A stretch of DNA of 36,354 nucleotides from a virus, in the IMG/VR virus record IMGVR_UViG_3300028197_000061, positions 1 through 36,354 of that record. One strand, given 5' to 3'. This document shows positions 3,041 to 23,700 of this stretch, in pieces (positions within the stretch are counted from its first letter, which is position 1; the number at the start of each line of letters is the position of its first letter). A program made the translations under genes and the position numbers. The notes beneath the pieces are model-generated. The model ran no database searches, was not told the origin of the DNA, and saw only the letters and a list, made by a program, of their open reading frames with translations.

Positions 3041-5230
3041 ATGTCATTAACAAATTTTTCTAACCTAGATTTCGATCAGGTTAAACAATCACTCAAAGAT
3101 TATCTTCAGGCAAACTCCAATTTTACGGATTATGACTTTGAGGGTTCTAACCTATCGTCTATACTTGACGTTTTAGCTTATAACACATACATTACTTCAT
3201 ATAACGCTAACATGGTAGCGAATGAAGTCTTCCTTGATAGTGCTACATTGAGAGAAAATGTAGTTTCTATCGCAAGGAATATTGGATATTTACCAAAATC
3301 AAGAAAATCTGCTAGAGCAACTATTAGTTTCTTCGTAAATGTTACTAATGTTACCCCTTCGCCAGTATCGTTAACGCTTAGGCGGGGTCCAGTCGCAACA
3401 TCATCAGGAAATTTTGGTAATAGTTCTTTTATTTTTTCAATTATTGACGATATTACAGTTTCTGTTTCTAATGGAATTGCAATTTTCAATAATATTCCAA
3501 TTTATGAAGGTCCACTGATATCACAATCATTCGTTTACAATTCCAGAAACTATAATCAGAAGTTTATTTTACCAAATTCTGGTATTGATATGGATTTGAT
3601 GAATATTTTTGTCAAAGATAGTGAAACTGCAACTGCATCTACACGTTATGCCAGACAAGATAATTTATTTGGTGCAGACAAATACACAAAATCGTATTTT
3701 TTACAAGAAGTAGAAGATGAAAGATATGAAATTTTGTTTGGTGATGGTATTTTTGCTCAAAAATTGCAAGATGGTAACCAAATTGAAGTAAGTTATATCA
3801 GATCTAACGGTGATAGTGGTAATGGAGTTTCTAATTTTACTTTTAACGGAAGAATCACCTATCAAAGAAATGCTATTGAATATAATGTAACTGATGGTGT
3901 TTCATTATTAACAACTGGTGTTTCTTCTTCTGGCGGAGAAAATATTGAAAGTGTAGAATCTATCAAAAAATTTGCTCCAAGGTCATTCGCTGCTCAAAAT
4001 AGAGCAGTTACGAGTTCAGATTATGAAACTTTAATTCCATCAAAAATTTATACCGAAACTGAGTCAATTTCAGTTTTTGGTGGGGAAGAATTAATTCCTC
4101 CACAGTATGGAAAAGTTTTTATTAGTATAAAACCAAAATTTGGAGATTTTTTACCAAATTTAATTAAAGAAAATATTAAAAAAGAACTTAAAAGATACGC
4201 CGTAGCAGGAATTCTTACAGAAATTCTTGATCTTAAGTATTTGTATGTTGAAGTTGACTCAAAAGTTTATTATAACTCAAATTTAACACCTTCCTCTCAA
4301 CGAATTTCTTCTATTATACAAAATAATATACAAAAATATGGCGAATCTACAGAATTAAATCAATATGGGGCAAGATTTAAATATTCCAAATTTCAAAGAA
4401 TTATTGACGACAGTAATCAGGCAATTACATCTAATATAACTACTATTAGTATACGAAGAGATTTAAGAGTTGTTTTAAACACTTTTGCAGAATACTCAAT
4501 TGGGTTTGGCAATCAATTTCATATAAAAAGTCTTGAAGGATACAACATAAAATCATCAGGTTTTACTGTTAGTGGAATTCAAGAAACTCTATATCTGGGC
4601 GATGTACCAAACTTAAATAATCAAACTGGAGATTTATTCTTCTTTACTGTACCAACATTAACATCCCAAAATCCTACGATTGTAAAAAGAAATGTTGGCA
4701 CAGTCGATTATGTAAATGGAATTGTAACTTTAAATCCTGTAAATATAATTTCAGGAAAAATACGTGATGGTCAACCTATTATTGAAATTTCTGCAACACC
4801 AAAATCTAATGATGTAATTGGATTGCAAGATTTATATTTACAATTAGATATTGGAAATAGTGTTTTTGACATGGTGGTTGATGATATTTCTTCTGGAGTT
4901 GATTCTTCTGCTTCTACGTATATATCGTCCTCTAGTTATGCTAATGGTAATTTGGTAAGGTCTGGTGGAAGAGCAGGATCAACTCCTCTCTCAGAAGCAC
5001 AAGCAAGGGCAGTTAATGCGTCTGGAACAAACGTTTACAGTACTGGCGCTTCTTCATCAACAAACACATCAACGACGCCTACAACGACGCCTACAACAAC
5101 CTCTACATCATCAACGTCTTCATCTTCCTCCTCTTCATCATCATCTTCATCATCTTCATCGTCTTCATCATCTTCCTCTTCCTCATCGTCAAGTTCGTCT
5201 GGCGGCGGTGGTTACAGCAGCGGTTACTAA
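3041..5230 (+). CDS. 6: baseplate wedge protein gp6 with poly-Ser tail
   Basis: The N-terminal region (DFDQVKQSLKDYLQ, TDYDFEGSNLSSILDVLAYNT, FLDSATLRENV, NIGYLPKS) lines up with T4 gp6, the wedge protein that forms the inner baseplate ring. The 729-residue length exceeds T4 (660). The excess is mostly C-terminal: after about residue 640 the chain becomes Ser/Thr-rich, with a Thr-Pro stretch, 28 uninterrupted serines (693-720), and the ending GGGGYSSGY. The poly-Ser codons are mixed TCN plus one AGT. The core wedge function is well supported; the tail's role is unknown. It is followed after 13 bases by the giant gp7-like gene. Confidence 0.92.
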   Translation: MSLTNFSNLDFDQVKQSLKDYLQANSNFTDYDFEGSNLSSILDVLAYNTYITSYNANMVANEVFLDSATLRENVVSIARNIGYLPKSRKSARATISFFVNVTNVTPSPVSLTLRRGPVATSSGNFGNSSFIFSIIDDITVSVSNGIAIFNNIPIYEGPLISQSFVYNSRNYNQKFILPNSGIDMDLMNIFVKDSETATASTRYARQDNLFGADKYTKSYFLQEVEDERYEILFGDGIFAQKLQDGNQIEVSYIRSNGDSGNGVSNFTFNGRITYQRNAIEYNVTDGVSLLTTGVSSSGGENIESVESIKKFAPRSFAAQNRAVTSSDYETLIPSKIYTETESISVFGGEELIPPQYGKVFISIKPKFGDFLPNLIKENIKKELKRYAVAGILTEILDLKYLYVEVDSKVYYNSNLTPSSQRISSIIQNNIQKYGESTELNQYGARFKYSKFQRIIDDSNQAITSNITTISIRRDLRVVLNTFAEYSIGFGNQFHIKSLEGYNIKSSGFTVSGIQETLYLGDVPNLNNQTGDLFFFTVPTLTSQNPTIVKRNVGTVDYVNGIVTLNPVNIISGKIRDGQPIIEISATPKSNDVIGLQDLYLQLDIGNSVFDMVVDDISSGVDSSASTYISSSSYANGNLVRSGGRAGSTPLSEAQARAVNASGTNVYSTGASSSTNTSTTPTTTPTTTSTSSTSSSSSSSSSSSSSSSSSSSSSSSSSSSSGGGGYSSGY
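5072..5095 (+). repeat. 12-bp perfect tandem repeat in gene 6
   Basis: ACGACGCCTACA is present twice back to back (5072-5083 and 5084-5095), encoding Thr-Thr-Pro repeats just before the poly-Ser tract. Confidence 0.85.
5117..5200 (+). repeat. poly-serine codon tract (28 codons) in gene 6
   Basis: Twenty-eight consecutive Ser codons use TCT, TCA, TCC and TCG, plus AGT once. This produces long open frames in other registers and on the opposite strand, which are artefacts of the repeat. Confidence 0.9.
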
Positions 5231-5243
5231 TACTTAAATTAAA

Positions 5244-8200
5244 ATGACAGCAAAAAGAGTTCAACTTTCCACAATTGTTAAAAGTCAAGTTCCTGACTAT
5301 GTTAGGTCTGATTTTCCTCTGATAACTGAATTTTTAAAAGAGTACTATAAAGGACAGGAATATCAGGGTGGTCCAATTGATCTTATTAATAATATTGATA
5401 GATATTTAAAAATTGATTCTTTTACTAATAGGGTATATTCAAATACTATTTCAAAATCTATCAATACCATTGATAGCACAATTGAAGTAATTGACACATC
5501 AGGATTTCCAGATTCTTATGGTTTGTTAAAAATTGATAATGAAATTATTACATATAAAGGAAAAACTGACAGATCCTTTACTGGTTGTATTAGGGGATTT
5601 AGTGGAATTTGCGAACTTTCTAAAAATAATTCTCCAGATGAAGTTCTATTTGAATCAACAAATGCAGAAACTCATGCAAATGGTGCTCAAGTTTTAAATC
5701 TTAGCGTATTGTTTCTAGCAGAATTTTTAAATAAAACTAAAAAGCAATTTTCAACAGGTTTTGATGATAGAGAATTATATTCTGAAGTAAATCAAAATAC
5801 TTTTTTAAAGCAAGTAAGAAGTTTTTATGCGTCAAAAGGAACAGAAGAGTCATTTAAAATTTTATTTAAAGCATTATATGGTATAAATGTAGAATTAGTA
5901 AATCCTTCAGATTTACTTTTCAGACCTTCTGATGCACAATTTAATCAAGTAGAAAGTATCATTGTAGATCCAACTACAAATGAAAGTGAGTTTGATGATA
6001 TTCAAAATATTACTCTTTTTCAGGATTATCCATCAAAATCTTATGCACCTATTTCTTATTCAGAAAAAGTTCTAGGAAAAGATTCTAAAGTATATCATAG
6101 ATTAGATATTGACGCTGGATATAATAAAGATATCACATTTGATGGTGCGATTTATGGAGATTTTAAAGTAACTCCTAAAACAAAACTTGTAAATCCAGTA
6201 TCTATTGGGGCATCTTACCTAGATGTAGAATCAACAGTTGGTTTTGCGAATACGGGACATATTTCCTTTAAGTATAGTGATGGTTCATTAGGAACACTAT
6301 ATTATGGATCCAAAACGATTAATCAATTTAGAGACGCTGGATACATTTATAAGCAAATTGAAGAAGAGGAGAATATAACAGATAGAGATACTTTTGCATA
6401 TGCTACAATAAATGGAAAAAGAGTACAATGCAATGTATCTTCGATTATTTCAGAGGTAAATGTCCCAAGTAAATCTCTTTATAATATTAAAGGTAGTAAA
6501 TCAAGAGTTAAAACTCTTGGTTTTGAAGGTAGAGGGTTTAAATTTAATGATTGGATTTATAACAATAAAAAATTATTTACTATTGGATCTTTAAGTATTA
6601 TTGATGCAGCAGATAATGTATATCGTGCAAATTTAAACAATAATCATTATGTTTTTAAAGATGATACTATTGAAATAATTGACAATAGTGGACAATCCAT
6701 AAACGGAGTAGTTTTATCTGTCATCAATGGAAAATCCTTAAATATTAGAACAGAGGGAACACTTAGTTTAACCGGAATATACACACTTAAAAAGAATATT
6801 TTAAAAGGTATATCTCCATCGTTCCCACAGATAGAGGATTATCAAGCAAATATTCAAAATGTATACGTAAATGACGATAACAATTTATTAATTGCATCTT
6901 CTTCAATACCTTCAGAACCAATTTCAATATCAGATGTAGATTTAGAAGTTAATGGAACCTTTGAAGGAACTGAAGTTTCATTTAATTCTGAGCATAATTT
7001 AAAAACTGGTGATAAAGTTTATTATTATCCAGAAGTAATTGAAGAAAAAATTATTGATGAAAATTTTAACTATGTGACACAAGAAGTTGAGGGAAGCAAA
7101 TTATTTAATGAGGGAATTTACTATGTTGAAAAAATTAATAATTTTTCTGTAAAATTTTCATTAAGTAAAGAAAATATTTTCTTTGAAAAATACGTTATTT
7201 TTGCACAAACTACTGTACAAAATAATAGAGTTAGACTTTATGATTATCATGAAAAAGATCTTCTAGATCAAAAATTACTAAGAGAAATTCCTTTACCATT
7301 AGAAAGTTCTTCGGAAAAAGTAAAAACTCTTCCTGGAATGACTGGAATTTTATTAAATGGTGTAGAGATTCTAAACTATAAGTCAAAAAATAATATCTAT
7401 TATGGAGAAATCAAAAGTATTGATGTAAATTCATCAGACAATCAATTTGATATAATTAATCCACCCAATTTAGTTATTGAAGACAGTGGAAGAGGTAAGA
7501 ACGCTAGCGGTTTTCTTGGAATCACAGGTTCCCTAAGTAAAGTTAAAATCGTAAATAGAGGATTTGATTATGAGAGCACCCCGACTATTAAAGTGGTTGG
7601 TGGTAATGGTAATGGTGCTTCAGTTTTAGTAAACATGAAGTCAACAGATAATGTTGCTAATTTTGATAGTAAGTTTATTCGACTATCTCCAATTAATAGT
7701 ATTGGTTTTTCAACTTATCATAAATTTAGAGATTATGAAGAAGTTGTTTATCAAACTAGTGACCAGTTAGGAATTGTTGGTTTAACTACAAATACTACTT
7801 ACTTTGTTGGTTTAATTGATATAACTACAACTTACTCAGTAACTGTTGCTAATAAAACATCAAGTCATCCTTACTACGGGGAGGGATCTGGAAACGGATA
7901 CTATATCATTGGTGGTGATTATGATACAACATCAGAAGCACCTAACTTACAGTTTATTCCTGGCGAAACTTACATATTCAATCAAAACGATGCATCATCT
8001 GCATCCCATGCCATATACTTTAGCACAGTAGAAGGTTCCTATGGCGGTAATGACAGATATGAGACTGGTGTAACTTACACTCTTGATGGAGTAAAAGTTA
8101 CGTACAGTGCATATGCAAGTGGTTTTGCAGCTGCCTCAAATCGTAGTATCAGTATAACAGTTGATGATACAGCGCCCGCAACTCTGTACTACGCATGTCA

Positions 8201-11200
8201 ACAACATGAAAAAATGGGCAATGCAATAAGAATTTTTAATGTTGAGGGCAAAAAAGATCTTAATAATCTAAAATTATATAACACTAGAAATGATGCTGTT
8301 TCTGGAATAAACACCATATCACTTACTGTATATGGAAATGGAGTTCATAGTCTTACAGCATTAACTAAAAAAAGACAAGTAGATTCCATTAATATTGTCG
8401 AACCTGGAGAAGGATATTCAAACAGAAAAGTAACCTGTCAACATACCGGAATTAATACCTCAACCAACAGCATTAATAGTATTGATCATGGATATACTAG
8501 TGGTGATAAAATCCAATATATGGGAGTTGCTAGTGGAACAGATACTCAACTAGTAGGTCTTTCATTAAATATTGACTATATTGCTACAGTATTGGATAAA
8601 GACAATTTTACCCTATCAGAAATAGGTGTTGGCAATACGATCAATATATTTGCAGATAGACAAGAATATGTAAATATAACTACAACTGGAATTGGAACTC
8701 ATATTTTTAATCATCCTCCAATTCAAGTTATTTTAACTGGTCAAACTGCTATTGGTACTGAATTTGTTGCAGAACTCCAACCACAATTCTTAGGTTCTGT
8801 TAATAATATTCATATTTCAAATGGTGGAGTTGGATATGGTGTAACTAATATTCAAAACTTTGAAAGAAGTCCAATTATTACATATTCTATTGGAAAAGAT
8901 ACTCAAATTAAAGCCAGTGTTAATAATGGTAGCATAACAGAAGCAATTGTTTTAAATAGAGGTAATAATTTCACTTCTGCTCCAGATATCGTTGTAGATG
9001 GTGATGGAACAGGTGCAGTATTAACTGCGATTATTAGAAGTGATGGTAGAATTGAAAAAATTATTGTAATTGAAGGTGGTAGAGGATATGATAGTCTTAA
9101 TACTAACATTAGAGTTGTATCGTCAGAATCTCTCTCACAATCAAAATTCAAAGCAAATCTTCAATCTTGGAAAATTAATTTATTTGAAGATGCATTTGAC
9201 AAATTAGAAAACGATGATGGTATTCTAACTCTTTCAAGTTTTGGAAACTTTGGTATTCAATATTCTCATCTTTTTGCCCCAAGATATTTAAGATCTAGGT
9301 TAATCCCAAGCGATTCTGAAGGTGATAAAAAATATGGAACAAGCGATCTTCCATTTAATAGAGTTGAAATTGATTCTCCTAATCACTCTCCTATTATTGG
9401 ATGGGCTTATGATGGAAATCCTATCTATGGACCTTACGGATATTCTGCAAACTCTGGCGGTGTAGCAGTAAGAATGAAGAGTGGATATTATACTGAGACA
9501 TCTTTATCACCAAACAGACCACCAAATTATTCTGCAGGATATTTTGTTCAGGATTATACTTATTATAGAGTTGATGACGATACTGTTCTTGACGAAAATA
9601 ACGGAAGATATTGTATAACACCAGAATTTCCAAAGGGAACATATGCATACTTTACTACAATAAGTGAACTTTCTGATGATAGTGGTCCTTTTAGAAATTA
9701 CAGAAGACCAGTTTTTCCATATCTAATTGGAGATAATTATTTCTCAATTCCAAGTAAGTTTAATAAGGAAAAAAATTCAAATCAAGATGGTTTTGATTTG
9801 AATAATAGTGATTATAAAAGAAATACTACCATATATAATTTCTTTGATAAAGATGTTAGATATCCATATATCAATTTACCAAATGATTTAAATCAAAAAG
9901 TAACAATTAAAAATCTTTCCAAAGGTAAAATTAGTGATATTAAAGTTTTAAATGGCGGAAACTCTTATAAAGTAGGAGATAGATTAGTATTTGATCAAAA
10001 AGAAACTGGTGGGAGTGGACTTGCTGCTAAAGTTTCTTTTGTAGAAGGTAAAGAAATTAGTAAAATTGAAAATGAGCATAGTGAAACTTTTATTGAAATT
10101 TTGCCCTCCGGTAAAAAAGGTATATTTGTTGGAGTAGCATCTACTGCTCATGGATATTTTAATGGAGAATTAATATCCTTAACTAATTTTTCTACAACTA
10201 GATCAAAATTAGAAGGTAATTATTCTGTAGTAGTTCCAGCAACAACTCTTACATTAATTGGTTTAGGAACCACTACACATGCTCTAGGTCCATTATCAAA
10301 TACGGGAATTGTAACTTTTGTACATGTATCAAATTCAAACTTTGATCGTATTAACGAAAATGATGTTATTCAGATTCATCAAGAAAGAGTTAAAGTTCTA
10401 AATGTAGACTCCTTATCTGGAAGACTTAGAATTATTAGAGAGTTTGATAATACTGTTTCAGGAGTTCACACGATAGGGGTTGCAGCAACTGTAGACCAAA
10501 GGAGATTTGAATTTAAATCTGATCATGATAAGTCCTTTAATTTTAAAACTAATAAAGAGTATTATTTTGACCCGCAAGAATCTGTTGGATTATCTGGTGG
10601 GTATGGGAATCCTGGAACGGGAAGTACAATAACATTTGAAGTTCCAGGAGTTGGTGGTACATCAATTCACATTAAACCAAAGTCAGTATACTTGAGAGGT
10701 CATGATCTAAAAACTGGTGATGCAGTAGTATATAATATTAATAATAGTGGAGGCAATGCAATTAAATATGAAGACTCTACTACATCGTCTGGTATTGGTT
10801 CTGACTTAATTGATGGTAGAACATATTATGTTGCTAAGTTTAATAAGGATTTCATTGGAATTTCGACCGTTAAAGTTGGAATTGGATCAACAGGAGTATT
10901 TTCTGGTATAGCAGTAACAACTAAAGATATTGGTTTAGTTGATTTTATCAATCGCGGTTCATCTACATATCATAGTTTTGCAACACAATATCCTAAAATT
11001 ACTTCAGATGCAATTAAAAACCGAGTAATTGTTTCAACTGCAACTACTCATGGACTGAGTTCTGATCATAGAGTATTATTTGATATTAAACCTAAAGTTC
11101 AAAAAACTGTAGTTGTAAAATACGACGATTTTAACAGAAATATTTTAATTAATCCAAAATCTTTTGAACCAACTGGTGTTAACACCTCAACCGGAATTAT

Positions 11201-14200
11201 TACTATTCAAGACCATGGATTTTCTACTGGTGATAAGTTAATTCACACCAGCGAATGGGCAGCAGCTGCTTATGCTAATAACAGTCCATATTTTGCAGTA
11301 AAAATTAATAATAACAATTTTAAACTTTCGGAAACACTTTATAACTCAAAACTCGATCAACCAATAACCGTTGTTGGTGTTGCAACTACTGCAGGAACAT
11401 TAAGTCCAGTAAACCCAGTTATTGACACTGAAGGATATAATTCTATTAAATTTGACTTATCAGACCCTTCTTTACAATATGAGTATTTCTCAAATCAATA
11501 TCCTGGATTCGAGTTAGATTTCTATGTTGGAAAATCATTTAATAAACCTTGGACAAAAAATCCACAGGATATTGGATTTAAAGTAATAAAAACTGGTGTG
11601 GTAGGTTCAAATGCTATTGTAACACTATTTTTAGATTCCGATACGCCTAAAGATTTGTATTACAATCTTGTTCCAAAGTATACTCAAGGTGTTCCATTAG
11701 CAGAAACAAAAAAAGATGTATATCTTGACACAACCGTAAATGGTGCAGGTTATATTAAAGTATCACCTAGTTCATATTCTGGTTCGCACAAGATAAAAGT
11801 TTCTACTGCTAGTACGTTTACATATAATTTGACCAGTGAACCAGAAATTGTATCTTATGGATCAACTAATGCATCATTGTCGTACATTACAGACTGTACA
11901 CATACAGATGGTCCCATTTCTCGACTAGAAATTTTAAATACTGGAGACAATTATAATACCCTTCCAGGTTTTACAACAGTAACCTCTATTAATGGTGTTG
12001 ATTGCGATTTGGAATTGCGAAGTTTAGATATTGGATTAGTTAAAAATAGTGAAATAACTAATTATGGATATGATTTTCCATATGATCAAACAATTAGACC
12101 ATTATTTTACTATTCACAATCTTTAAAAATAACCCCATTCTCATCAATTGAGTTTATTGGAATTTCTTCTTTTGGAAGGGGTTATTTTGGAAAGCAAGAA
12201 CTAATAGTTATTGATGGAGTTTCTAAAGAAATAGTATCTGATATTGATTTAGAATACACCAGCACTAGTGCTGAAGTGACTATATTACGTAATACTTATG
12301 GGATGAATAATGTTGTTCCGAAAATTTATCCAATAAATTCTGGGGCAGGTGTTCCCGTTGATAATAGTATACTAGGCGATGGTGTTACTACTGGTATTAC
12401 ATATAATTCAGCAACTAAAATTGCTAAAGCAATAATAAAAACAGAGTATTCTACTGGAGACTATTATCCATTTGAGGTGGGTGAAAAGATAATGATTGAG
12501 GGTTCCAATCCTGGTATTGGAAACTCTAGAGGATTTAATAGTTCTGAATTTAATTATGATTTATATACAATTACCGCAATTGATCCAAACGTTGGTGGTG
12601 GAGCAGGGTCTGTTTCATTCAATATAGCAGATCAGTTAAAAGATACTGAAACGGTTATTGAATATGATCTAATTAATTCGGCTGCAAGAATACTCCCACA
12701 AAGAGACTTTCCAACTTTTGATGTAAAAATTAAAAAGAATGAATTTATTAAAGAAGAGATAATTAGAAGTAATGGCAAGATTGCTATTGTAGAAGAATGG
12801 GATAAAGAATTTTCAATTCTTAAAGTTAATTCTATAGATGAATTTGATAGTAATGAAACTATTACTGGTCAAACCTCAAAGTCTATTGGAACAGTTGGTA
12901 GTGTCCTATTCCCTTTCAAAGAATATGGCAAATATGGCAGCACAATTAAACAGAATAGGGGTTGGAAAGCAATTGCAGGATTTTTAAATAACGATCTTCA
13001 AAGAATTCCTGATAATGATTATTATCAAAACTTCTCATATTCTCTAAAATCTACTGTTCCATTACAAACATGGAATGATCCGGTATCTTCAATGAATCAC
13101 GTTGCTGGATACAAAAAATTTGCTAACTATCAGTTAGAGTCGTATGAAAGGGGTCTTAGATTATCTACTTCTCCAACCCAAGGTTCTAGTTATATAAACC
13201 TTATAAAAGATATTGTAGAAACTGTAGATATTAATTGTGTTAATGATTTTGACTTAGTTAGAGAAAATTCTATTTCTTTGGGAGGTGCAGATTTAGTTTC
13301 TACACAAATTATTTTTGAAAGCAGACTTATATCCAACTTTGATCAAGCAATTGGCAACAGAGTTTTATCAATAGATGATATTAGTGATTTGTTTAGCCAT
13401 CGTCCAAGACCGGAGGAATTTGTAAATATTGATAAATTTAGTCTTGATAAAACAAGATTCTTAAGATTTATCACTCTTATAAGAGATCAAAGATTTACTT
13501 CAGAAAGACAGGTTTCTATTTTTGATGTTATTCATGATGGAAATTATGGATATAGTAATGAATATGCTGTCCTTTCGACGGTTGAGGATATGGGGTCATT
13601 TGATTTTGCAATTCAACAGGGGGAAGGATTAATTCAATACCATCCCACGCCAGAAAAAGTAGCATTTAATGATCTTAATATTTCATATGTTTCTTATAAA
13701 ATTGATGATAGTTTTGTAGGTATAGGAAGTAGTGCTTTTGGTGATGTTGCGATTATAAACACATCAAGCGTAGAACTGAATACTGTTGGAACAGGTGTTA
13801 CTATTGTTTCTATTGGAAGCACTTATAATTCCGTCTCAGTTATGGTAACAATAAATCCAGACACTGGAGAGCAAAATGAAGAGTTTCAATTTACTCAAGT
13901 TAATTTTATTCATGATGGAACTAATATAGTATCTTCTGGAGAATATGCATCTCTGTTTACTCAACTTGGACAAAGTGGATCTGAAGGATTTATAGGATAT
14001 GGAACTTTTTATCCATATATTAATGGTAATAATTTTAATGTGGAGTATATACCCAATGCTGGTATTGGAACAACTGCTGTTATCAATACAATCCAAATTG
14101 GATTAGCACAAACTGCTGTCAATGGTTCCACGGACTTTAATATGGTCCATACTAGAATGCAAACGCAATCTACCACTATTGCAGCATCAGCAAGTCCTGG

Positions 14201-17200
14201 AATTACAACCGTTAATGATTATAGATATATTGCAAATTCTCAAGAATTCCATGCAGCAAAATATTATGTTCATATAGCAGATAAAACTAATAATGAACAT
14301 GAATTTGTAGAACTATTTGCTGTTGACACTATTAACGCTGTTGGTATAGGTAGTGATGTATATTTAACAGAGTTTGCTAATTTAAGAACTTCATCTTCTG
14401 GTCTTGGTACTTTTGGTGCAGAAGTAGATGACACTGGGTTTGCGGTTGAGTTACAATTTACACCAAATCCAAATATAGATGTAGAGGTAAATGTTTTTGC
14501 TCAACAGTTAAAATCAGAAACAGCAGATGATGTTGATACAATTATTGATTTTAATAATGGTCTTGTTACTACTGACAGAGATGACTATGTTGGAACATTT
14601 AATGCTATTAAAACTGATTTTGACTTAACTCATGAAGGTCAGGATATTTTTGAAAATTGGTTTGAAGGAGGAAATTCTGATATTGTCAACACAACTGATA
14701 ATACGATTAAACTTCCAAACCACTTCTTTGTTTCTGGCGAAAGAGTTAGTTATTACAGAGATGATATCAATAATACAGCTTCTGCAATTGGTATAGGTGA
14801 AACATTTATCGTTGGAGTTGGATTAACCACCATTCTTCCTAATGATATTGAAAATCTCTTTATAGTTAAAATTGATGATACTTTTGTTGGATTGGCAACT
14901 AGTCCAGTAGACGCACAGTTAGCAAATCCAAATTTAATTAGTATTACAACTGTAGGAAGTGGAACTTCACATAGATTCTTAACAACTAAACAAAATTCGA
15001 GAGTTCTTGTCACCATCGATAATATTATTCAAAGTCCTATTGTTTCTACAGCAATTACAAGTTCTTTAAATGCAATAGCACTTTCAACAACAGATATTCT
15101 TGAATTTACAGGAGTAACTTCATTCTTTGGTGGAGACTTTTTACAAATTAATAATGAAATTATGAAAGTTGCTGGAGTTGGTGCTAATAATGACCCAAAT
15201 AAAGTAAGAGTTAGGAGAGCAAAACTAGGAACTAAGTTTGCCAATCATGCGGCAGGTGATGTGATAACTAAAATTTCTGGCAACTATAATATAACTGATA
15301 GTACAATTAGTTTTGCAGAGGCACCTTATGGTCTGGATCCTCTACCAAACCCATCAGATCCCAATTCAATTGACTGGGAGGGAATTGCTAAGGGTTCTAG
15401 TTTTCATGGAAGAAGTTATATGAGGGGAAAGGTTGCTACTGGCACCAGTGAAACCTACCAAAGAAATATTGTATTCCAAGATGTATCTGATAAATTTAAT
15501 GCTCTTGAAAATACATTCCCCTTGAAAACAACTGAAGGTCAAAATATTGCAGATATTGCAAATGAAAATGCTATCATACTAATCAATAGTGTATTTCAAC
15601 TTCCGGGAATTACAGTTGAAGAAGATTATAGACTCATAGAAGAAACTGTAGGTATTACCAGTGCAGTATTCAATGGTGATGCAAGAGATATTGGTTATGA
15701 TGTTGGAATTAGTAGTTTCCCTTCTGCTGGGATTATCCAGTCTATTGGTTCTACTGAAGGTCTTGGATACCAACCTCTTGTTTCTGCAGCAGGAACAGTT
15801 ACTGTGAGTGCATTAGGGACGGTAACGTCGGTTAGCGTCGGTTTTACTGGAAGTGGATATAGATCTCAAGAATATCATGAAATTATCACAAAAACAAATC
15901 ATCCTATTTCCACTGGCACTACCAATATCTTTATTGAAAATGAAAATAGTGTATTTGGTATTTTAAGTGAAGTTTATGATGGAACTAATGCATATATTGG
16001 TATTGGATCATTTAGGGCACAATATGTAACGACACTTAATGGTATTGGTAATACATTTGTCCAAATTAGACCAGAACAAACTTCTATTTACAATATTCCA
16101 TCTGGAACTTCTGTGAGCATTGGAGTTACCGTACCATACGGTATTGTTAATGTTAGTGCTGCTACTAGCAATATCAGTCCAGGAGTAGTTTCTGGTCTTA
16201 CTTATGATGTATTAAATGCAGATTATAATCCAGAGACTGGATTTATGTCTATGACTCTTCCAATAGGTCATGAATTAAGTCAAGGAGATTATATTAGATT
16301 TGTAGACAATAGTTTAAACTTCAGTTGTAACAGTGACAATAATACTAGAATCAAATCATATCCTAGACCAAATCTTGACACTAATGCAAGTAGAAGACCT
16401 TTAAGACTTGAAGATGTTTCAGATCAACGTGCGCGAGTATTTGTTGGTCTCTCAACCTTTGTATATTTTGATGTTACAGATGCAACATACACACCCAATA
16501 CTGGTAATTTAGAACTTACTATTGGTAGTCATAACTTTGTTGCGGGTAGAGGCATATCTATCGAAACTGATTCTCTATCCTTTAAGTGTGCAATGGATGG
16601 CAATACAGCAACCAAGACATATCCTCGCGCAACTGATCCTGCGGCAAATACTACTCTTGATATTACTGCAGTAACCTCTAACACAATTACTGTCAATGTT
16701 GGTGCTTCACCTCTGGTAACATATACACCAGGTGCAGGAACAACATATGATCCTAGCACAGGATTGATGGTTCTTGAAATTGGTACGCATAATTTAACTG
16801 CTGGTACAAGTATTAAATTAGCAACTGAGTCATTGACATTTAGTTGTGGATATAATGGTGCTACTGGTTCTGCTGCTGAAAAATCATATCCTAGATCTAA
16901 TGGCAATGATCCATTCTATGATACTGCAATTAACATCGCGTCAGTAACTGAAACTACAATCACACTTCAAGTATTAACAACCATTCCTTCTACAAATACT
17001 GACGTACATACATTCGTATCTGCAACGACTGGAGCAGTTATCTCTGGAGGCAACTATCTCCACTCATTCCAAAGTGCAACAGCAAATGCTGTTCGTGCTG
17101 GCGGTCAGTATACGCATACCTTCGTAGGTATTGGGACAGACGCTGTTGTTAGCACTGCAACTACATCTATCCAACATATTGGTTTTGCGACTGTCATAAT

Positions 17201-19145
17201 TGGAACTGGACATATTTCTCCAAATGTTACTATAACCAATCCAGGATATGATCTTGATATAGATCAAGAATTAATGCCACAGATAATATTTGATAGTCCA
17301 AAACCATATGGAAATATTCCCTTAGTATTTTCTAATGAGAATGCATTAGTTAGTTTGGGAACGGAAGCTAGAGTTGATGTTGTAGTTAGTAATGGTTCTA
17401 GTGTATCTTCTTTCAATTTTACAAATAGTGGTTATGCATATGGAAATAACAACATCTTAACAGTACAAACTGGAGGATTAGTAGGAATTCCGACATCACC
17501 AAACTTTAAAGAATTCCAAATTATTGTACAAAGGACTTTTGATGATACATTTAATGGATGGAATCTTGGTGAACTTGAATTACTTGATAATGTTGACGCT
17601 TATATTAATGGTAGAAGAAAACTTTTCCCGCTGTTTAGAAGCGGAGAAAGACTGTCTATCATTGCCGCAAAAGATTCAAAAATTGATCCCAATCAGTTAT
17701 TGTTAGTATTCTTAAATAATATTCTTCAAGTTCCTAAAAAATCATATTTCTTCTTTGGTGGTAATAGGATTAGATTTACTGAAGCACCTAGACCAGGCGA
17801 TTTCTTAAGAATTCTTTTCTATAAAGGTAATGGTGAAACTGATGTTGTCAATACTGAAGTAATACAAACAGTAAAAGAAGGAGATACTCTTAATATTAAT
17901 TCAAATGATATTATTCTAGATGAAGATAAGAGAACTATTACAGATATTGTTTCAACTGATACCGTAGAAACTCTTCCATATTTTGGACCAGGAAATACTG
18001 CCGATATTGATTTAACTAGACCAGTTGATTGGTGTCGTCAAAGTGAGGATAGGATAATTAATGGGTTGCCTATCTCTAAGGCAAGAACATTCTATGAACC
18101 AAATATTTTACCAAATGCCTACTTAATTAAACCAGTTGGTCTTGGCGGAACAGTGTTTAGTGTTAATACTACTAGACCTCTATTCAATCAAAGTGATGAA
18201 TTTACTACCGTTCAAGGAAAACTTGCCCAAAACGTAATTAAAATTCACCCACAAAGGGAAATATCACCTTCTACTGCAACTGCTACTGTTTCTACTGCAG
18301 GAACCGTCTCATCAATATTAATAACAGATGGTGGACATGGTTATCTTACAGTTCCTACGGTAAGTATTGCAAGTACAAATGGTGTAGGTATTGGCACAAG
18401 TGGGACAGCATCTGCGGCCGCTACGCTTACGAATGGAGTTGTTACTGGAATAACAATAACTAATGGTGGTGTTGGATATTCTACGGTAACAGCACCTAAA
18501 GTTTTAATTTCTCCTGCACAAGCATCCAAAATTGAACAATGTGAAGTTTATTTCCCAGATGGTTATAGAGGAGATTCTGGAACAGTTGTTGGATTTGCAA
18601 CAACTTCAATTTCAGGAGAAACCTTTGCATTATTTGACCTCTTTATTCCAGAACAAGACCAAGTTTTCAATAATATTAAATATGTTGGATTTGGTATAAC
18701 TGTTTCTCAAATTGAGCAAGGAGATGCATTTACAATCTACAACTCTAATGTTGGAACGGCAAATACTTCTATCACAAGTTATGATAGTGCTGGCGCTGTT
18801 CTTGGCATAAGCACTTCATATATTGATGGGGTTTATGAAGTAATAGAAGTTGTAGAAGAACCTAGAAATATGGGTGGAATTGGAACAGCAACAGCAAGAG
18901 TTCGTGCAAGAGTTGATAATCCTCCTGTAGGATTTGATTTTAATGCTAATTGGACTGGAAGCACTGGAATGACTACATCAAATTATCAAGGTTCATATAG
19001 TTGGGGTAGAATTGTAGTTAAGAGTAGAGCAATTTCTACTACCTATAATCCATATAACTCACAAGGAATAAGTGGCATTACTACCTCCCCACTTGTTGTA
19101 AGAGAGAGATCTCTAGCATTTGTGGGATATACCACAACTACGTAA
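5244..19145 (+). CDS. 7: giant gp7-like baseplate wedge protein (4633 aa) with modular insertions
   Basis: One unbroken 13.9-kb frame follows gene 6, where T4 has gene 7. Residues 194-212 (FYASKGTEESFKILFKALY), with the preceding helical region, match a conserved stretch near the C-terminus of T4 gp7 (1032 aa), supporting a wedge role. The rest is mosaic: an IDNEIITY module (about 78-120), several HG-x-x-TGD-x-V-x-Y/YYVxKI modules, GY-x-x-P-T modules (about 770-1290 and 4360-4435), a cupredoxin-like segment (862-1002; H922, C985, H988, M991), a YHYH-like domain (1375-1475), HDGT fibre-type modules (2846-3090), three 86-88-residue Cys repeats (3652-3915), three 18-residue repeats (3922-3975), and an LLVFLNNILQVP module (about 4096-4220). 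No catalytic enzyme was recognised. The excess probably decorates the baseplate rim; that is inference. No clear ribosome-binding site precedes the ATG. Confidence 0.75.
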   Translation: MTAKRVQLSTIVKSQVPDYVRSDFPLITEFLKEYYKGQEYQGGPIDLINNIDRYLKIDSFTNRVYSNTISKSINTIDSTIEVIDTSGFPDSYGLLKIDNEIITYKGKTDRSFTGCIRGFSGICELSKNNSPDEVLFESTNAETHANGAQVLNLSVLFLAEFLNKTKKQFSTGFDDRELYSEVNQNTFLKQVRSFYASKGTEESFKILFKALYGINVELVNPSDLLFRPSDAQFNQVESIIVDPTTNESEFDDIQNITLFQDYPSKSYAPISYSEKVLGKDSKVYHRLDIDAGYNKDITFDGAIYGDFKVTPKTKLVNPVSIGASYLDVESTVGFANTGHISFKYSDGSLGTLYYGSKTINQFRDAGYIYKQIEEEENITDRDTFAYATINGKRVQCNVSSIISEVNVPSKSLYNIKGSKSRVKTLGFEGRGFKFNDWIYNNKKLFTIGSLSIIDAADNVYRANLNNNHYVFKDDTIEIIDNSGQSINGVVLSVINGKSLNIRTEGTLSLTGIYTLKKNILKGISPSFPQIEDYQANIQNVYVNDDNNLLIASSSIPSEPISISDVDLEVNGTFEGTEVSFNSEHNLKTGDKVYYYPEVIEEKIIDENFNYVTQEVEGSKLFNEGIYYVEKINNFSVKFSLSKENIFFEKYVIFAQTTVQNNRVRLYDYHEKDLLDQKLLREIPLPLESSSEKVKTLPGMTGILLNGVEILNYKSKNNIYYGEIKSIDVNSSDNQFDIINPPNLVIEDSGRGKNASGFLGITGSLSKVKIVNRGFDYESTPTIKVVGGNGNGASVLVNMKSTDNVANFDSKFIRLSPINSIGFSTYHKFRDYEEVVYQTSDQLGIVGLTTNTTYFVGLIDITTTYSVTVANKTSSHPYYGEGSGNGYYIIGGDYDTTSEAPNLQFIPGETYIFNQNDASSASHAIYFSTVEGSYGGNDRYETGVTYTLDGVKVTYSAYASGFAAASNRSISITVDDTAPATLYYACQQHEKMGNAIRIFNVEGKKDLNNLKLYNTRNDAVSGINTISLTVYGNGVHSLTALTKKRQVDSINIVEPGEGYSNRKVTCQHTGINTSTNSINSIDHGYTSGDKIQYMGVASGTDTQLVGLSLNIDYIATVLDKDNFTLSEIGVGNTINIFADRQEYVNITTTGIGTHIFNHPPIQVILTGQTAIGTEFVAELQPQFLGSVNNIHISNGGVGYGVTNIQNFERSPIITYSIGKDTQIKASVNNGSITEAIVLNRGNNFTSAPDIVVDGDGTGAVLTAIIRSDGRIEKIIVIEGGRGYDSLNTNIRVVSSESLSQSKFKANLQSWKINLFEDAFDKLENDDGILTLSSFGNFGIQYSHLFAPRYLRSRLIPSDSEGDKKYGTSDLPFNRVEIDSPNHSPIIGWAYDGNPIYGPYGYSANSGGVAVRMKSGYYTETSLSPNRPPNYSAGYFVQDYTYYRVDDDTVLDENNGRYCITPEFPKGTYAYFTTISELSDDSGPFRNYRRPVFPYLIGDNYFSIPSKFNKEKNSNQDGFDLNNSDYKRNTTIYNFFDKDVRYPYINLPNDLNQKVTIKNLSKGKISDIKVLNGGNSYKVGDRLVFDQKETGGSGLAAKVSFVEGKEISKIENEHSETFIEILPSGKKGIFVGVASTAHGYFNGELISLTNFSTTRSKLEGNYSVVVPATTLTLIGLGTTTHALGPLSNTGIVTFVHVSNSNFDRINENDVIQIHQERVKVLNVDSLSGRLRIIREFDNTVSGVHTIGVAATVDQRRFEFKSDHDKSFNFKTNKEYYFDPQESVGLSGGYGNPGTGSTITFEVPGVGGTSIHIKPKSVYLRGHDLKTGDAVVYNINNSGGNAIKYEDSTTSSGIGSDLIDGRTYYVAKFNKDFIGISTVKVGIGSTGVFSGIAVTTKDIGLVDFINRGSSTYHSFATQYPKITSDAIKNRVIVSTATTHGLSSDHRVLFDIKPKVQKTVVVKYDDFNRNILINPKSFEPTGVNTSTGIITIQDHGFSTGDKLIHTSEWAAAAYANNSPYFAVKINNNNFKLSETLYNSKLDQPITVVGVATTAGTLSPVNPVIDTEGYNSIKFDLSDPSLQYEYFSNQYPGFELDFYVGKSFNKPWTKNPQDIGFKVIKTGVVGSNAIVTLFLDSDTPKDLYYNLVPKYTQGVPLAETKKDVYLDTTVNGAGYIKVSPSSYSGSHKIKVSTASTFTYNLTSEPEIVSYGSTNASLSYITDCTHTDGPISRLEILNTGDNYNTLPGFTTVTSINGVDCDLELRSLDIGLVKNSEITNYGYDFPYDQTIRPLFYYSQSLKITPFSSIEFIGISSFGRGYFGKQELIVIDGVSKEIVSDIDLEYTSTSAEVTILRNTYGMNNVVPKIYPINSGAGVPVDNSILGDGVTTGITYNSATKIAKAIIKTEYSTGDYYPFEVGEKIMIEGSNPGIGNSRGFNSSEFNYDLYTITAIDPNVGGGAGSVSFNIADQLKDTETVIEYDLINSAARILPQRDFPTFDVKIKKNEFIKEEIIRSNGKIAIVEEWDKEFSILKVNSIDEFDSNETITGQTSKSIGTVGSVLFPFKEYGKYGSTIKQNRGWKAIAGFLNNDLQRIPDNDYYQNFSYSLKSTVPLQTWNDPVSSMNHVAGYKKFANYQLESYERGLRLSTSPTQGSSYINLIKDIVETVDINCVNDFDLVRENSISLGGADLVSTQIIFESRLISNFDQAIGNRVLSIDDISDLFSHRPRPEEFVNIDKFSLDKTRFLRFITLIRDQRFTSERQVSIFDVIHDGNYGYSNEYAVLSTVEDMGSFDFAIQQGEGLIQYHPTPEKVAFNDLNISYVSYKIDDSFVGIGSSAFGDVAIINTSSVELNTVGTGVTIVSIGSTYNSVSVMVTINPDTGEQNEEFQFTQVNFIHDGTNIVSSGEYASLFTQLGQSGSEGFIGYGTFYPYINGNNFNVEYIPNAGIGTTAVINTIQIGLAQTAVNGSTDFNMVHTRMQTQSTTIAASASPGITTVNDYRYIANSQEFHAAKYYVHIADKTNNEHEFVELFAVDTINAVGIGSDVYLTEFANLRTSSSGLGTFGAEVDDTGFAVELQFTPNPNIDVEVNVFAQQLKSETADDVDTIIDFNNGLVTTDRDDYVGTFNAIKTDFDLTHEGQDIFENWFEGGNSDIVNTTDNTIKLPNHFFVSGERVSYYRDDINNTASAIGIGETFIVGVGLTTILPNDIENLFIVKIDDTFVGLATSPVDAQLANPNLISITTVGSGTSHRFLTTKQNSRVLVTIDNIIQSPIVSTAITSSLNAIALSTTDILEFTGVTSFFGGDFLQINNEIMKVAGVGANNDPNKVRVRRAKLGTKFANHAAGDVITKISGNYNITDSTISFAEAPYGLDPLPNPSDPNSIDWEGIAKGSSFHGRSYMRGKVATGTSETYQRNIVFQDVSDKFNALENTFPLKTTEGQNIADIANENAIILINSVFQLPGITVEEDYRLIEETVGITSAVFNGDARDIGYDVGISSFPSAGIIQSIGSTEGLGYQPLVSAAGTVTVSALGTVTSVSVGFTGSGYRSQEYHEIITKTNHPISTGTTNIFIENENSVFGILSEVYDGTNAYIGIGSFRAQYVTTLNGIGNTFVQIRPEQTSIYNIPSGTSVSIGVTVPYGIVNVSAATSNISPGVVSGLTYDVLNADYNPETGFMSMTLPIGHELSQGDYIRFVDNSLNFSCNSDNNTRIKSYPRPNLDTNASRRPLRLEDVSDQRARVFVGLSTFVYFDVTDATYTPNTGNLELTIGSHNFVAGRGISIETDSLSFKCAMDGNTATKTYPRATDPAANTTLDITAVTSNTITVNVGASPLVTYTPGAGTTYDPSTGLMVLEIGTHNLTAGTSIKLATESLTFSCGYNGATGSAAEKSYPRSNGNDPFYDTAINIASVTETTITLQVLTTIPSTNTDVHTFVSATTGAVISGGNYLHSFQSATANAVRAGGQYTHTFVGIGTDAVVSTATTSIQHIGFATVIIGTGHISPNVTITNPGYDLDIDQELMPQIIFDSPKPYGNIPLVFSNENALVSLGTEARVDVVVSNGSSVSSFNFTNSGYAYGNNNILTVQTGGLVGIPTSPNFKEFQIIVQRTFDDTFNGWNLGELELLDNVDAYINGRRKLFPLFRSGERLSIIAAKDSKIDPNQLLLVFLNNILQVPKKSYFFFGGNRIRFTEAPRPGDFLRILFYKGNGETDVVNTEVIQTVKEGDTLNINSNDIILDEDKRTITDIVSTDTVETLPYFGPGNTADIDLTRPVDWCRQSEDRIINGLPISKARTFYEPNILPNAYLIKPVGLGGTVFSVNTTRPLFNQSDEFTTVQGKLAQNVIKIHPQREISPSTATATVSTAGTVSSILITDGGHGYLTVPTVSIASTNGVGIGTSGTASAAATLTNGVVTGITITNGGVGYSTVTAPKVLISPAQASKIEQCEVYFPDGYRGDSGTVVGFATTSISGETFALFDLFIPEQDQVFNNIKYVGFGITVSQIEQGDAFTIYNSNVGTANTSITSYDSAGAVLGISTSYIDGVYEVIEVVEEPRNMGGIGTATARVRARVDNPPVGFDFNANWTGSTGMTTSNYQGSYSWGRIVVKSRAISTTYNPYNSQGISGITTSPLVVRERSLAFVGYTTTT
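7827..8249 (+). other. cupredoxin-like domain within the giant gp7-like protein
   Basis: Residues about 862-1002 contain LQFIPGETYIFNQ, then ASHAIYF with His922, a glycine/tyrosine-rich middle, and LYYACQQHEKMGNAI with Cys985, His988 and Met991. His plus C-x2-H-x2-M is the ligand arrangement of type-1 copper proteins such as amicyanin. Similar segments (GHPLxFST ... YYYCxxHxGMGG) are common in structural proteins of marine phages, from memory. Copper binding is not shown by the sequence. Local base composition is less AT-rich than the flanks. Confidence 0.6.
9366..9668 (+). other. YHYH-like domain within the giant gp7-like protein
   Basis: Residues 1381-1396 (HSPIIGWAYDGNPIYG) and 1454-1470 (GRYCITPEFPKGTYAYF) match the signature halves of the YHYH domain family (G-x-A-x-DG-x-PIYG, and a later aromatic strand). 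The domain is found in secreted bacterial and phage structural proteins; its function is not established. Confidence 0.6.
16197..16988 (+). repeat. three tandem 86-88-residue Cys repeats in the gp7-like protein
   Basis: Three copies share YxPxTGxxxLxI, G-x-SI-x-x-x-x-SLxFxC and K-x-YPR. Their first tyrosines are residues 3661, 3749 and 3835, giving spacings of 88 and 86. Each has one Cys in SLNFSC, SLSFKC or SLTFSC. They look like beta-rich repeats diverged at DNA level. Confidence 0.75.
17007..17168 (+). repeat. three exact-register 18-residue repeats in the gp7-like protein
   Basis: His3922, His3940 and His3958 each begin an 18-residue unit of the form H-x-F-x5-x-AV, followed in the first two copies by GG-x-Y. 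The period is exactly 54 bases, although the codons have diverged. Confidence 0.65.
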
Positions 19146-19171: not shown

Positions 19172-20734
19172 ATGTCTGCAATAATTACAGATCAAATTAG
19201 AATTTTGAACGCGAAAAATTTTCGCAATGGTGTATTGAGTACTTCTAATGCTTATTATACCTTTGTCGGATTGACTAACTCTACCGATTTTAGTGACACA
19301 TGGGAAGCTAGACCTCCCTCTCCAAGAGATAGTTTTAATCAGGAGAATGATTATTGGGACACCATGATTGCTATGAAGAGGATTACTTCTTCAGATATTA
19401 TGCATGTTGTACCAAAAAGAAATTGGTCTTCAGGTTCAAAATATGATATGTATCGGCATGATTATAGTATTGACAATCTTGCTGCAGTTTCGAGTGCAAC
19501 AAATCTGTATTCATCATTTTTCTATGTTATGAATAGAGATTTTAGAATATATATTTGCCTACAAAATGGAACAAGTCCCGATAATCCAACAGGAAAACCC
19601 TCACTTGATGAACCTACATTTACTGATTTAGAACCAAGAGTTGCTGGTTCAAGTGGAGATGGATATGTTTGGAAATATCTTTATACTTTAAGTCCTTCAG
19701 ATATTATTAAATTTGATTCGACTGAGTTTATGCCAGTTCCAAATGACTGGGAAACATCTTCAAATAATGCCCTTGTAAGAGACAATGCTGTTAGTGGTTC
19801 AATTAAAATTGTAACCATAAAAAATAAAGGATTAAATGTTGGAGCAGCAAATTTACAATATCGTAATGTTCCTATTAAAGGAGATGGTATTGGTGCAGAG
19901 TGTACTATTACAATCGATGAAAACTCCCAAGTTTTATCTGTAGATATATCAAATCAGGGTTCTGGATATACATATGGAACTGTAGATTTAGTTGCTGGTT
20001 CTGTTCCTACTGGAACAGTTAGACCTACATTTGATGTTATCATTCCTCCTCAGGGTGGACATGGATATGATATATATCGAGAACTGGGAGCATCTAATCT
20101 TTTACTTTATGCAAGAATTGAAAATGATACTCAAAATCCAGATTTTATTACCGGCAATAAAATTGCTAGAGTTGGTATTGTAGAAAATCCAACTGAATTT
20201 AATTCAACTACAATTCTTGATAAACCCAAAGCAAGTGCTGTTGGCGCTTTAAAACTTGTAGGAACAGGGTATAGTACTGCCGAGTTTGCTATAAATACAT
20301 TTGTTTCTCAAACTATTGCAACAGGAACAACTGCTTTTGGTAGAGTGATTAATTATGATCAAACAACTGGAATATTGAAATTTTGGCAGGATAGATACCT
20401 TGTTGGATTTAATACCTCCGATGGTACTCCAAATATTACTCCAAGACATGGATATGATTTAGCAGAATTTACAAGTTCTCCTGATACGGGTGGTTCATTT
20501 TCAGTTATACCAGATAATGGTAACAATTCTAGTTTGTTTATTGATAGTACATTTACAGGTGCTTCTACCGTAATAAATAATAGAACCTATTATTATGGTC
20601 TTAATTTCACTGACGGTATTGCTTTACCAGAAGTTCAAAAACAATCTGGTAATATCATTTACGTTGATAATCGACCTTCTATTCTTAGATCGTCAAATCA
20701 AAAAGAAGACATAAAAATTATCTTGCAGTTCTAA
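19172..20734 (+). CDS. 8: baseplate wedge protein gp8
   Basis: T4 gp8 landmarks are present in order: VPKRNW (80-85; T4 has IPRRDW), DGYVWKYLYTLSP (163-175), and the C-terminal IIYVDNRPSILRSSNQKEDIKIILQF region (495-520; T4 MIYMENRPPII...INILFTF). T4 gp8 is 334 residues and forms part of the wedge; this one is 520. The additional length is central (about 215-470) and contains a GSGYTYGTVDL unit (263-273), a TAFGRVINYDQTTGILKF unit (387-404) and other beta-rich sequence also found in neighbours. It follows the gp7-like gene as in T4 and lies seven bases before the next gene. Confidence 0.92.
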   Translation: MSAIITDQIRILNAKNFRNGVLSTSNAYYTFVGLTNSTDFSDTWEARPPSPRDSFNQENDYWDTMIAMKRITSSDIMHVVPKRNWSSGSKYDMYRHDYSIDNLAAVSSATNLYSSFFYVMNRDFRIYICLQNGTSPDNPTGKPSLDEPTFTDLEPRVAGSSGDGYVWKYLYTLSPSDIIKFDSTEFMPVPNDWETSSNNALVRDNAVSGSIKIVTIKNKGLNVGAANLQYRNVPIKGDGIGAECTITIDENSQVLSVDISNQGSGYTYGTVDLVAGSVPTGTVRPTFDVIIPPQGGHGYDIYRELGASNLLLYARIENDTQNPDFITGNKIARVGIVENPTEFNSTTILDKPKASAVGALKLVGTGYSTAEFAINTFVSQTIATGTTAFGRVINYDQTTGILKFWQDRYLVGFNTSDGTPNITPRHGYDLAEFTSSPDTGGSFSVIPDNGNNSSLFIDSTFTGASTVINNRTYYYGLNFTDGIALPEVQKQSGNIIYVDNRPSILRSSNQKEDIKIILQF

Positions 20735-20740
20735 AGGATT

Positions 20741-23700
20741 ATGCCACAACAAACTAATCTCAACGTATCGCCATATTTTGATGATTACGATCCGTCCAGT
20801 GATTTTCATAAAGTTCTGTTTAAACCTGGTTATCCAGTACAAGCAAGAGAACTAACAAATCTTCAATCAATTCTTCAGAATCAGATTGAAAAATTTGGGC
20901 AGCACTTTTTTAAAGAAGGTTCTAAAGTAATACCAGGTAACACAGGATACACTCAACTTTACTATAATGTTCAGTTGAATAATACGTATCAAGGTGTTCC
21001 GGTTTCTGCTTATGCAGATCAACTTGTAGGATTAAAAATAACCGGACAAAACTCTGGAGTAACTGCAGTTGTTGACAGTGTTCTTCTTCCTACGGATTCT
21101 GCTAATGGAAATTTAACTTTATATGTAAATTATATAAATTCAAATACAGCGAATAATTTAAGTCAAGAATTTTTTGATAATGAGGAATTAGTTTGTAGTG
21201 CTGCAATAAATTCTAGCCTATTAGGAAATTCTACAATCCCGGCAAATAGTCCTTTTGCGGTAACAATACCTCAGAATGCAAGTTCTATTGGATCTGCATT
21301 CCAAATTCAGCAAGGTGTATATTTTATTAGGGGTAATTTTATACAAGTAGATACTGAAACTTTAATTCTGGATCAGTATTCAAATAGACCTAATTACAGA
21401 ATTGGTCTTCAGATTAGAGAAGAAATTATAACTTCAGATTTAGATCAAACTCTAAATGATAATTCTCAAGGTTTTAATAATTATTCGGCACCTGGTGCAG
21501 ATAGATTAAAAATTTCAGTAAGTCTATTCAAAAAACCACTTGATGATTTTGATGATAATAATTTTATTGAATTAGCAGTAATCGAAGATGGAATTATAAG
21601 ATCGCAAATTAAAAATACAAAGGCAGGTTCAAATCAAGTCTTCCGCGAAGACTTGATGGATACTTTGGCACAAAGAACTTTTGAGCAGAGTGGTCATTAT
21701 GTAGTAAAACCTTTTGATGTATCAGTATTTAATTCACTCAACAATAATCTTGGCAATAATGGATTATTTGCAGGTGGAGAATTCACCTATGGAGGTTCAT
21801 TAGCATCTGATGATTTAGCAATATTTAAAATTTCATCAGGTAAGGCATATGTAAAAGGATATGAGATTGAGACTTCAACACCAACATTTATTGATGTTGA
21901 AAAACCAAGAACAACTAATGATGTTAATGCAGAATCTTTATCATATAATACTGGTTCCACAATTAAACTAAATCGAGTATTTAGAACACCTGCACCAGGT
22001 ATCGGAATTGGTAATACATATGTAGTAAGTTTGAGGGATCAAAGATGTGGTTCTAATCAAAATACCGCTCCAGGAACAGAAGTTGGTCTTGCTAGAGTTT
22101 ATGACTTTAGATTAGAGTCTGGTTCATATAGCGCAGATAATGCATCTACTAATGAATGGGGTCTTTCTCTGTTTGATGTTCAACCATTTACAAAACTTAC
22201 ATTAAACCAGGCACACACATTAACAGTACCAACTTTTGTCAAGGGTGCTAATAGTGGTGCTACTGCATTTCTTAGAGATGCCGTTACTGCATCTACAGCA
22301 CTAACTCTTTATGAAAGAAATGGTTCATTTATTGAAAATGAATCTCTAATTTTCAATGGAAATCAAGATGGTAGAATTGCAATTGCAATCACAGAAAAAT
22401 CTATTGCGGATGTAAGATCAGTTTTTGCTACAGAAAATAGATTAGTTGGTATTAATACTTTTGCTGGTGATGTTATTCAAACAAGATCATTTAATGTAGG
22501 TGTTGGACAGGTTAGTGCCGCAGGAAATATTGAAAGTTCTAATCCAAGATTCTTAGATAATGTTAAAGTTAGCGATCTAATTACATATTCGGATCTTGCA
22601 ACTTCTACTGATAAAATTATGGTTAAAGTAACGGCAGTTAATGCGAGTAGTATTACTGTAGAGGGAGTTCAAACAGTTGCTGGTATTGTTAATGGCAATC
22701 TTCCTGGATCAGGTTCCATTAATGTTTCTGATATGGACATTGTAAGAACTTCACTTGACAAATCTTCTGATAATACATTATATACAAAACTAACTAAACA
22801 AAATGTTGCTACTATAGACCTTGATGAGTCTTCAATTACTATCAGAAAAGTTTTTGATGTAAATATTCTTGCGAATGGAACTATTGACACTGGAACTCCA
22901 ATGGATGCAGGAGATCGTGAAGTATTTTTACCATTTGCGGCAAATAGATATTCCCTTATTAGAACTGATACAGGGGAAACAATTGAACTGACAGAAAATA
23001 AAATGTCTTTCAATGCACCTAGCAGTAGAATATTGAATATATTTAATATTGCTGGTGGTGCTGGTGCGGCAAAACTAGTTGCTACTTTAAGAAAATCAAA
23101 ACCCAGGTCAAAAGTTAAAAATAAAATTAATATAAATTCTTTGATTGTAGATAAATCAAAACTTGAAGGGTCTGGTATTGGCACAACAACCTTAAACAAT
23201 GGTCTTGAACATGGAAATTATCCTTTTGGAACTAGAGTCGAAGATGAAATTATCTCTATAAATTCTCCTGATGTTTTAGAAATTCACGGGGTATTTGAAT
23301 CAAGTGGAACTGAAAGTCCTTCTGCCCCGAAAATGACGTTTTCTTCGGTAAGTAGTCAAACCTCTACAACCCAAGATATTGTTAATGGAGAAATACTTAT
23401 TGGCCAAACTAGCGGATCTATCGCTGTCTGCGTAGAAAAACCTGACAATCTAAGTGTATCGTTTATTACAAAAAATCAAATTGATTTTATTGAGGGTGAA
23501 ACGGTTATCTTTCAAGATAGTTTAGTTGAAGGAATTATTAGTATTATTGTTGAAGGAAGTTTTAATATATCTTCAAATTATACATTTAGTACTGGCCAAA
23601 GAAAAACCGTTTATGGACATAGTTCTTTAAGAAGAAGATCTTCTGCTTCTGCACCAACTAAAAAAATAGTCACGTACTTTGCTTCTGCTAAGTATGATAC

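Follow-up and report, generated by a model that had tools for sequence, protein, structure and literature searches.

Genomic setting of the gp7-like protein

The DNA analysed here (the window) comprises 36,354 nucleotides and corresponds to the IMG/VR virus record IMGVR_UViG_3300028197_000061, of 36 kb, whose closest named relatives are myoviruses of Synechococcus and Prochlorococcus. The genes at the centre of the analysis are as follows.

3041-5230: gp6-like gene (phrog_219), upstream neighbour of the gp7-like ORF
5244..19145, plus strand: gp7-like baseplate wedge protein, an ORF of 4633 aa and host of the cupredoxin domain
19172-20734: gp8-like gene (phrog_438), downstream neighbour of the gp7-like ORF

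PHROG assignment placed the gp7-like ORF in phrog_2885, baseplate wedge subunit (E=0), and its residues 9-221 gave a match to Pfam Baseplate_wedge (PF23786; E=4e-4, below the family cut-off). The order of the gp6-like, gp7-like and gp8-like genes matches 6-7-8 of T4. The wedge profile and this gene order together identify the ORF as a putative counterpart of T4 gp7, an outer wedge protein, which is present in six copies. Putative neck and sheath genes resembling those for gp13, gp14 and gp15 come after the gp8-like gene, the T4 names being a reading of PHROG descriptions.

Two further genes of the region were recorded. Just upstream of the baseplate genes, at 1688-2407, lies a gene of the ferredoxin-annotated PHROG 3704, which is close to S-SKS1 (85% identity over 645 bases) and for which no Pfam match was found. 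At 20741-28255 there is an ORF of 2504 aa (phrog_358, function not annotated) with a DUF4815 domain (PF16075); at a guess, this is the position where a VrlC-like protein might be expected.

An additional domain in the gp7-like protein

Relative to gp7 of S-SM2, SynMITS9220M01 and P-TIM68, the gp7-like protein contains 146 extra residues, with alignment on both flanks.

7830..8267, plus strand: inserted cupredoxin domain, residues 863-1008, absent in relatives whose flanks align

The insert nearly coincides with residues 862-1002, which the first-pass annotation had singled out as a cupredoxin-like segment with a composition that would suit a domain acquired as a unit. Acquisition as a unit is supported by the clean insertion and by the presence of the same domain in unrelated virion proteins, described below. 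The segment had also been described as less AT-rich than its flanks, and this is correct: its GC content is 39.7% against an ORF mean of 32.5%, a value reached by 7 of 450 sliding windows along the ORF, and its GC3 is 25.2% against 14.5%, reached by 2 of the 450. However, GC3 exceeds that of both flanks in just 49 of 99 other copies, so composition alone is weak evidence of acquisition, and with so inconsistent a rise it was set aside as proof.

Ligand residues and predicted fold

The four residues proposed as a type-1 copper ligand set are all found at the positions claimed for them, with codons starting at 8007, 8196, 8205 and 8214.

8007..8009, plus strand: H922, predicted first His ligand; His in 107 of 132 near-full copies of the domain
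8196..8198, plus strand: C985, predicted Cys ligand, located where the penultimate strand ends; 104 of 132 near-full copies have Cys here
8205..8207, plus strand: H988, predicted second His ligand; retained wherever the Cys is present and the copy is not truncated there
8214..8216, plus strand: M991, predicted axial ligand; Gln in one homologue clade

The pattern CxxHxxM occurs once in the gp7-like protein, where 0.0009 occurrences are expected from its composition (14 Cys, 60 His and 22 Met in 4633 aa). The arrangement had been called amicyanin-type. That description holds for the Cx2Hx2M ligand loop, but the domain as a whole represents a separate family with longer His-Cys spacing: 62 residues separate the first His from the Cys in the window domain, whereas amicyanin has 38.

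Structure prediction, which had been suggested as a check, favoured the proposal: the domain was modelled with confidence as a beta-sandwich, and cupredoxins are its best matches in the PDB. The AlphaFold2 model of the domain, built with 85 homologues, had a mean pLDDT of 94.8 and a pTM of 0.89; a model of the domain within its gp7 context reached a pLDDT of 35. The strand pattern anticipated from the sequence is present around all ligand positions. In model numbering (residue minus 860), H922 stands immediately ahead of strand 64-67, C985 terminates strand 120-125, H988 and M991 lie in the loop after it, and strand 133-137 closes the domain. As modelled, this placement of the ligands on strands and loop is the cupredoxin layout, and the window copy has the expected set of two His, Cys and axial residue in order, with the ligand loop before the last strand. 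The predicted topology is likewise the Greek-key beta-sandwich of the cupredoxin superfamily.

Foldseek searches of the PDB returned AcoP and rusticyanin as top matches (E 7e-4 to 1e-3). Most of the further matches were multicopper oxidases and their relatives, and a few Ig domains appeared lower down; the TM of about 0.4 is moderate. With VIA-align the best match was the first cupredoxin domain of the Hyphomicrobium copper nitrite reductase (CuNIR; Z 9.1, rmsd 3.6, 107 residues). Laccases, factor VIII, rusticyanin and other nitrite reductases came next, all of one superfamily among the matches listed, at Z values of 8-9 that, being under about 10, are moderate.

Searched against BFVD, a model of window positions 7824-8258 matched giant-virus proteins with a beta-sandwich fold (Marseillevirus LCMAC201 and LCMAC202, Pithovirus LCPAC302 and LCPAC304; E 3e-7 to 8e-10).

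Sequence homology to copper proteins

Pfam and NCBIfam scans of the window domain found no cupredoxin family. Pfam gave a weak match to the At5g54830-like family PF25489 (E 0.04 to 0.055, below the 27-bit cut-off), and a match to L31 was dismissed as irrelevant. A search of the PDB with the eight closest sequences gave nothing useful, and wider profiles were therefore built. Iterated over the fetched loci, the profile of the window copy yielded 181 domain hits in 98 loci, among them a shorter sister type. The profile of this short type matched plastocyanin (1b3i, E 3.8e-6) and nitrite reductase (1.6e-5), as well as pseudoazurin, amicyanin and rusticyanin, and its His and Cys-His-Met pair with the copper ligands in the plastocyanin and nitrite reductase alignments. 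Two short-type members pass the cut-off of Pfam Copper-bind (28.4 and 27.2 against 21.2 bits), this family, PF00127, being matched at an E of 2.2e-6. An 85-member profile that includes the window copy matched mainly copper proteins, weakly (CuNIR, plastocyanin, pseudoazurin, auracyanin and amicyanin, E 0.004 to 0.9). These comparisons argue for homology to known cupredoxins by way of the sister copies, the window copy being not significant when taken alone. The amicyanin matches, at E 0.04 to 0.9, fall behind those of plastocyanin and CuNIR, and the profiles do not suggest close kinship to amicyanins.

In phage proteins, with their great length and many beta domains, such a motif might arise by chance in an unrelated fold. 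The expectation of 0.0009 occurrences in the protein, the conservation described below, the homology to plastocyanin and the cupredoxin fold leave this explanation a negligible probability, and it was rejected. That residues 863-1008 form a real cupredoxin domain with a full ligand set can be held with high confidence.

Distribution of the domain among virion proteins

The domain was found in proteins of phrog_2885, phrog_708, phrog_677, phrog_27200 and phrog_697, and in the tail-fibre proteins phrog_30742 and phrog_9851. At least six virion protein families carry it, sometimes in two or three copies per protein. Over 135 residues the window copy shares 73% identity with a copy in a phrog_27200 protein, and outside the cupredoxin domain no other significant similarity was found between that protein and gp7. 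Such a copy in an otherwise unrelated protein indicates that the module moves together with its ligands. Among isolates, 179 phage records contain the domain at E up to 0.01, nearly all of them cyanophages; Methylophilales phages also carry it. Judged by these matches, the domain is widespread in marine T4-like phages and is not a one-off.

No cellular donor was found when the short type was used for a single scan of archaeal and bacterial genomes, a search that reaches close relatives only. The scan returned three loci at which the neighbouring genes resemble phage virion genes. These loci (L102, L103 and L104), binned as Rhodopirellula, Nonlabens and Euryarchaeota, have phage-type virion genes flanking the domain, and are probably mis-binned phage contigs or, in Nonlabens, a prophage.

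The gp7-like protein of the window additionally contains a YHYH domain (PF14240) at 9369-9662, residues 1376-1473, with an E of 6e-21 and a match that spans profile positions 87-182 of 193. For YHYH domains of phage tails a metal-dependent hydrolase activity has been predicted (PMC7824862), and such domains are listed in structural proteins of pelagimyophages (PMC7029224); neither 'copper' nor 'cupredoxin' occurs in the text of the former paper, nor 'copper' in that of the latter. Cupredoxin copies sit beside YHYH pieces, or between them, in the proteins of L102 and of the L035 type, and because of this adjacency the two domains may act jointly.

Conservation of the ligands

Ligand conservation was assessed in 132 distinct near-full copies from phage and viral contigs, chosen regardless of their ligands; near relatives are counted repeatedly among them, and the counts are not independent events. 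An alignment selected for ligand-bearing copies (A2) was excluded as conservation evidence. His-Cys-His is present in 103 of the 132 copies, with Met (71), Gln (31) or Leu (1) as the axial residue. All of His, Cys and His are missing from 25 copies, the first His alone is present in 3, and 1 is interrupted by a contig end. No copy among the 132 has the Cys without the His equivalent to H922. In this alignment of homologues, which had also been called for as a check, the ligands are not lost freely but are retained or lost jointly, and loss appears to be nearly all-or-none.

Among ligand-keeping copies, the two His codons are both frequent at each His position, as are the two Cys codons at the Cys (CAT 66 and CAC 42 at H922; TGT 82 and TGC 26 at C985), so the conservation is not just a matter of recency and selection appears to maintain the ligand residues. 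In a tree from a quick search, all Gln-axial copies group together (31 rows, support 94), and ligand loss corresponds to about four changes, two of them forced by well-supported branches. Stellacyanin-type sites naturally have Gln as their axial ligand. Joint retention and loss, together with the Met/Gln axial pattern, is how a metal site in use is expected to look at the level of sequence.

Ligand-less copies often adjoin complete ones, and since some copies do without ligands, the fold has a copper-free use as well. In the gp7-like ORFs of L008, L009, L011 and L041-L055, a diverged copy lies directly upstream of the complete one, with Lys for the first His and without the Cys-His-Met segment; each would form a tandem pair in which one domain is metal-competent and the other metal-free.

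The cupredoxin fold might have been kept only as a beta-sandwich spacer or adhesion domain, comparable to the Ig-like domains of other phages, with the ligands serving in packing and the site normally empty. The ligand-less copies, often beside complete ones, would fit this, as would the recurrence of the domain in adhesion-type proteins such as tail fibres; moreover, the cytosol, where phages are assembled, offers little free copper. Against this, the ligands are retained and lost as a set, copies with His-Cys-His have metal-competent axial residues only (Met, Gln and one Leu), and copies that keep the ligands show synonymous differences in their His and Cys codons. An empty structural site is unlikely on this evidence.

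The site might also hold another metal such as Zn, or the Cys might act as a free thiol or redox switch. Sites of His and Cys can accept Zn, and apo-cupredoxins bind it in vitro. Copper is favoured, however, by an axial position that alternates between Met and Gln and by ligands that align with those of true type-1 sites, and a free thiol would need neither the two His nor the axial residue. Both variants seem improbable.

Proposed role of the domain

Taken together, the computed evidence (insertion, fold, homology, joint ligand fate, Met/Gln alternation and domain movement) makes it likely that a mobile cupredoxin domain, residues 863-1008, whose type-1 site is intact, has been inserted into a gp7-like baseplate wedge protein of a T4-like marine cyanophage. 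Its role would most likely be that of a metal-clamped accessory domain on the virion surface. H922, C985 and H988, with M991 as axial ligand, are predicted to form a mononuclear type-1 copper site. The copper-poor cytosol of assembly suggests that this site would receive its copper at the host envelope or once the cell has lysed, and the chance that copper is bound in the natural particle seems somewhat better than even. The metal would clamp the C-terminal loop and give a rigid, exposed accessory domain. Exposure on the virion is most likely, because the domain is inserted in gp7 and exchanged with fibre and connector proteins. If gp7 is present at six copies as in T4, each virion would have at least six sites. 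The metal-clamped domain would most likely serve in adsorption or particle stability; whether it does so rather than in redox chemistry is an evenly balanced judgement.

Blue copper proteins function mostly in electron transfer, and cyanobacterial hosts use plastocyanin. The domain could, on that analogy, exchange electrons with a protein of the host surface or of the thylakoid, or act as a redox sensor or trigger on landing. Cyanophages themselves carry plastocyanin genes (PMC3037559), which lends this idea some plausibility. On the other hand, no partner site or redox protein was identified, and the domain is spread over many different virion proteins and phages, some with non-photosynthetic hosts such as Methylophilales. 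Electron transfer by the domain is possible but less likely, and as the main explanation we regard it as highly improbable.

On the metal-clamped reading, virus particles may carry copper, since a conserved copper-protein domain is shuffled among their tail and other virion proteins. A bolder and rather doubtful extension is that tails with built-in copper are widespread among marine T4-like phages, that interchangeable type-1 domains in baseplate, fibre-connector and fibre proteins take copper from seawater or host lysate, and that this copper stabilises or triggers the particle, so that virions are themselves blue copper particles and phages constitute a pool of the metal.

If phage particles have intact blue-copper sites, these would represent a new kind of virion metal, to be set beside the iron in T4 fibres, and would bear on marine copper chemistry and cyanophage attachment. 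Virion cupredoxins would also bear on the annotation of many virion proteins with nameless repeated beta domains. The question of virion copper is directly testable with the cultured phages P-HM1 and P-HM2, which carry the domain, on Prochlorococcus MED4.

Comparison with known systems

No earlier description of cupredoxin domains in phage virions was found in the open-licence papers searched, which is not proof that none exists. The phage domain shares with plastocyanin and azurin (PF00127, Copper-bind) the fold, the strand order at the site and the aligned His and Cys-x2-His-Met, and sister copies pass the family cut-off, whereas the window copy does not. It differs from them in having additional loops in the 62-residue stretch that separates the first His from the Cys, and in being embedded in the middle of a virion protein. 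With amicyanin, which was found in the profile searches, it has the Cys-x2-His-x2-Met loop in common, but the profile score is weak (E 0.04 to 0.9) and the His-to-Cys stretch of the phage domain is longer. The best structural match, the N-terminal cupredoxin domain of Hyphomicrobium nitrite reductase (2dv6, 6tfo; Z 9.1), is 17% identical and, unlike the phage domain, is part of an enzyme. The axial Gln of stellacyanin-type sites recurs in 31 of the 132 near-full phage copies, although the phage spacing is Cx2Hx2Q and the window copy has Met. Iron-binding HxH tail fibres such as T4 gp37, and the Ferrojan horse hypothesis, have been discussed for marine phages (PMC11705849). These fibres, which likewise place a metal in the phage tail, are the nearest parallel, but their metal is iron, held by paired His in a fibre and with no cupredoxin.
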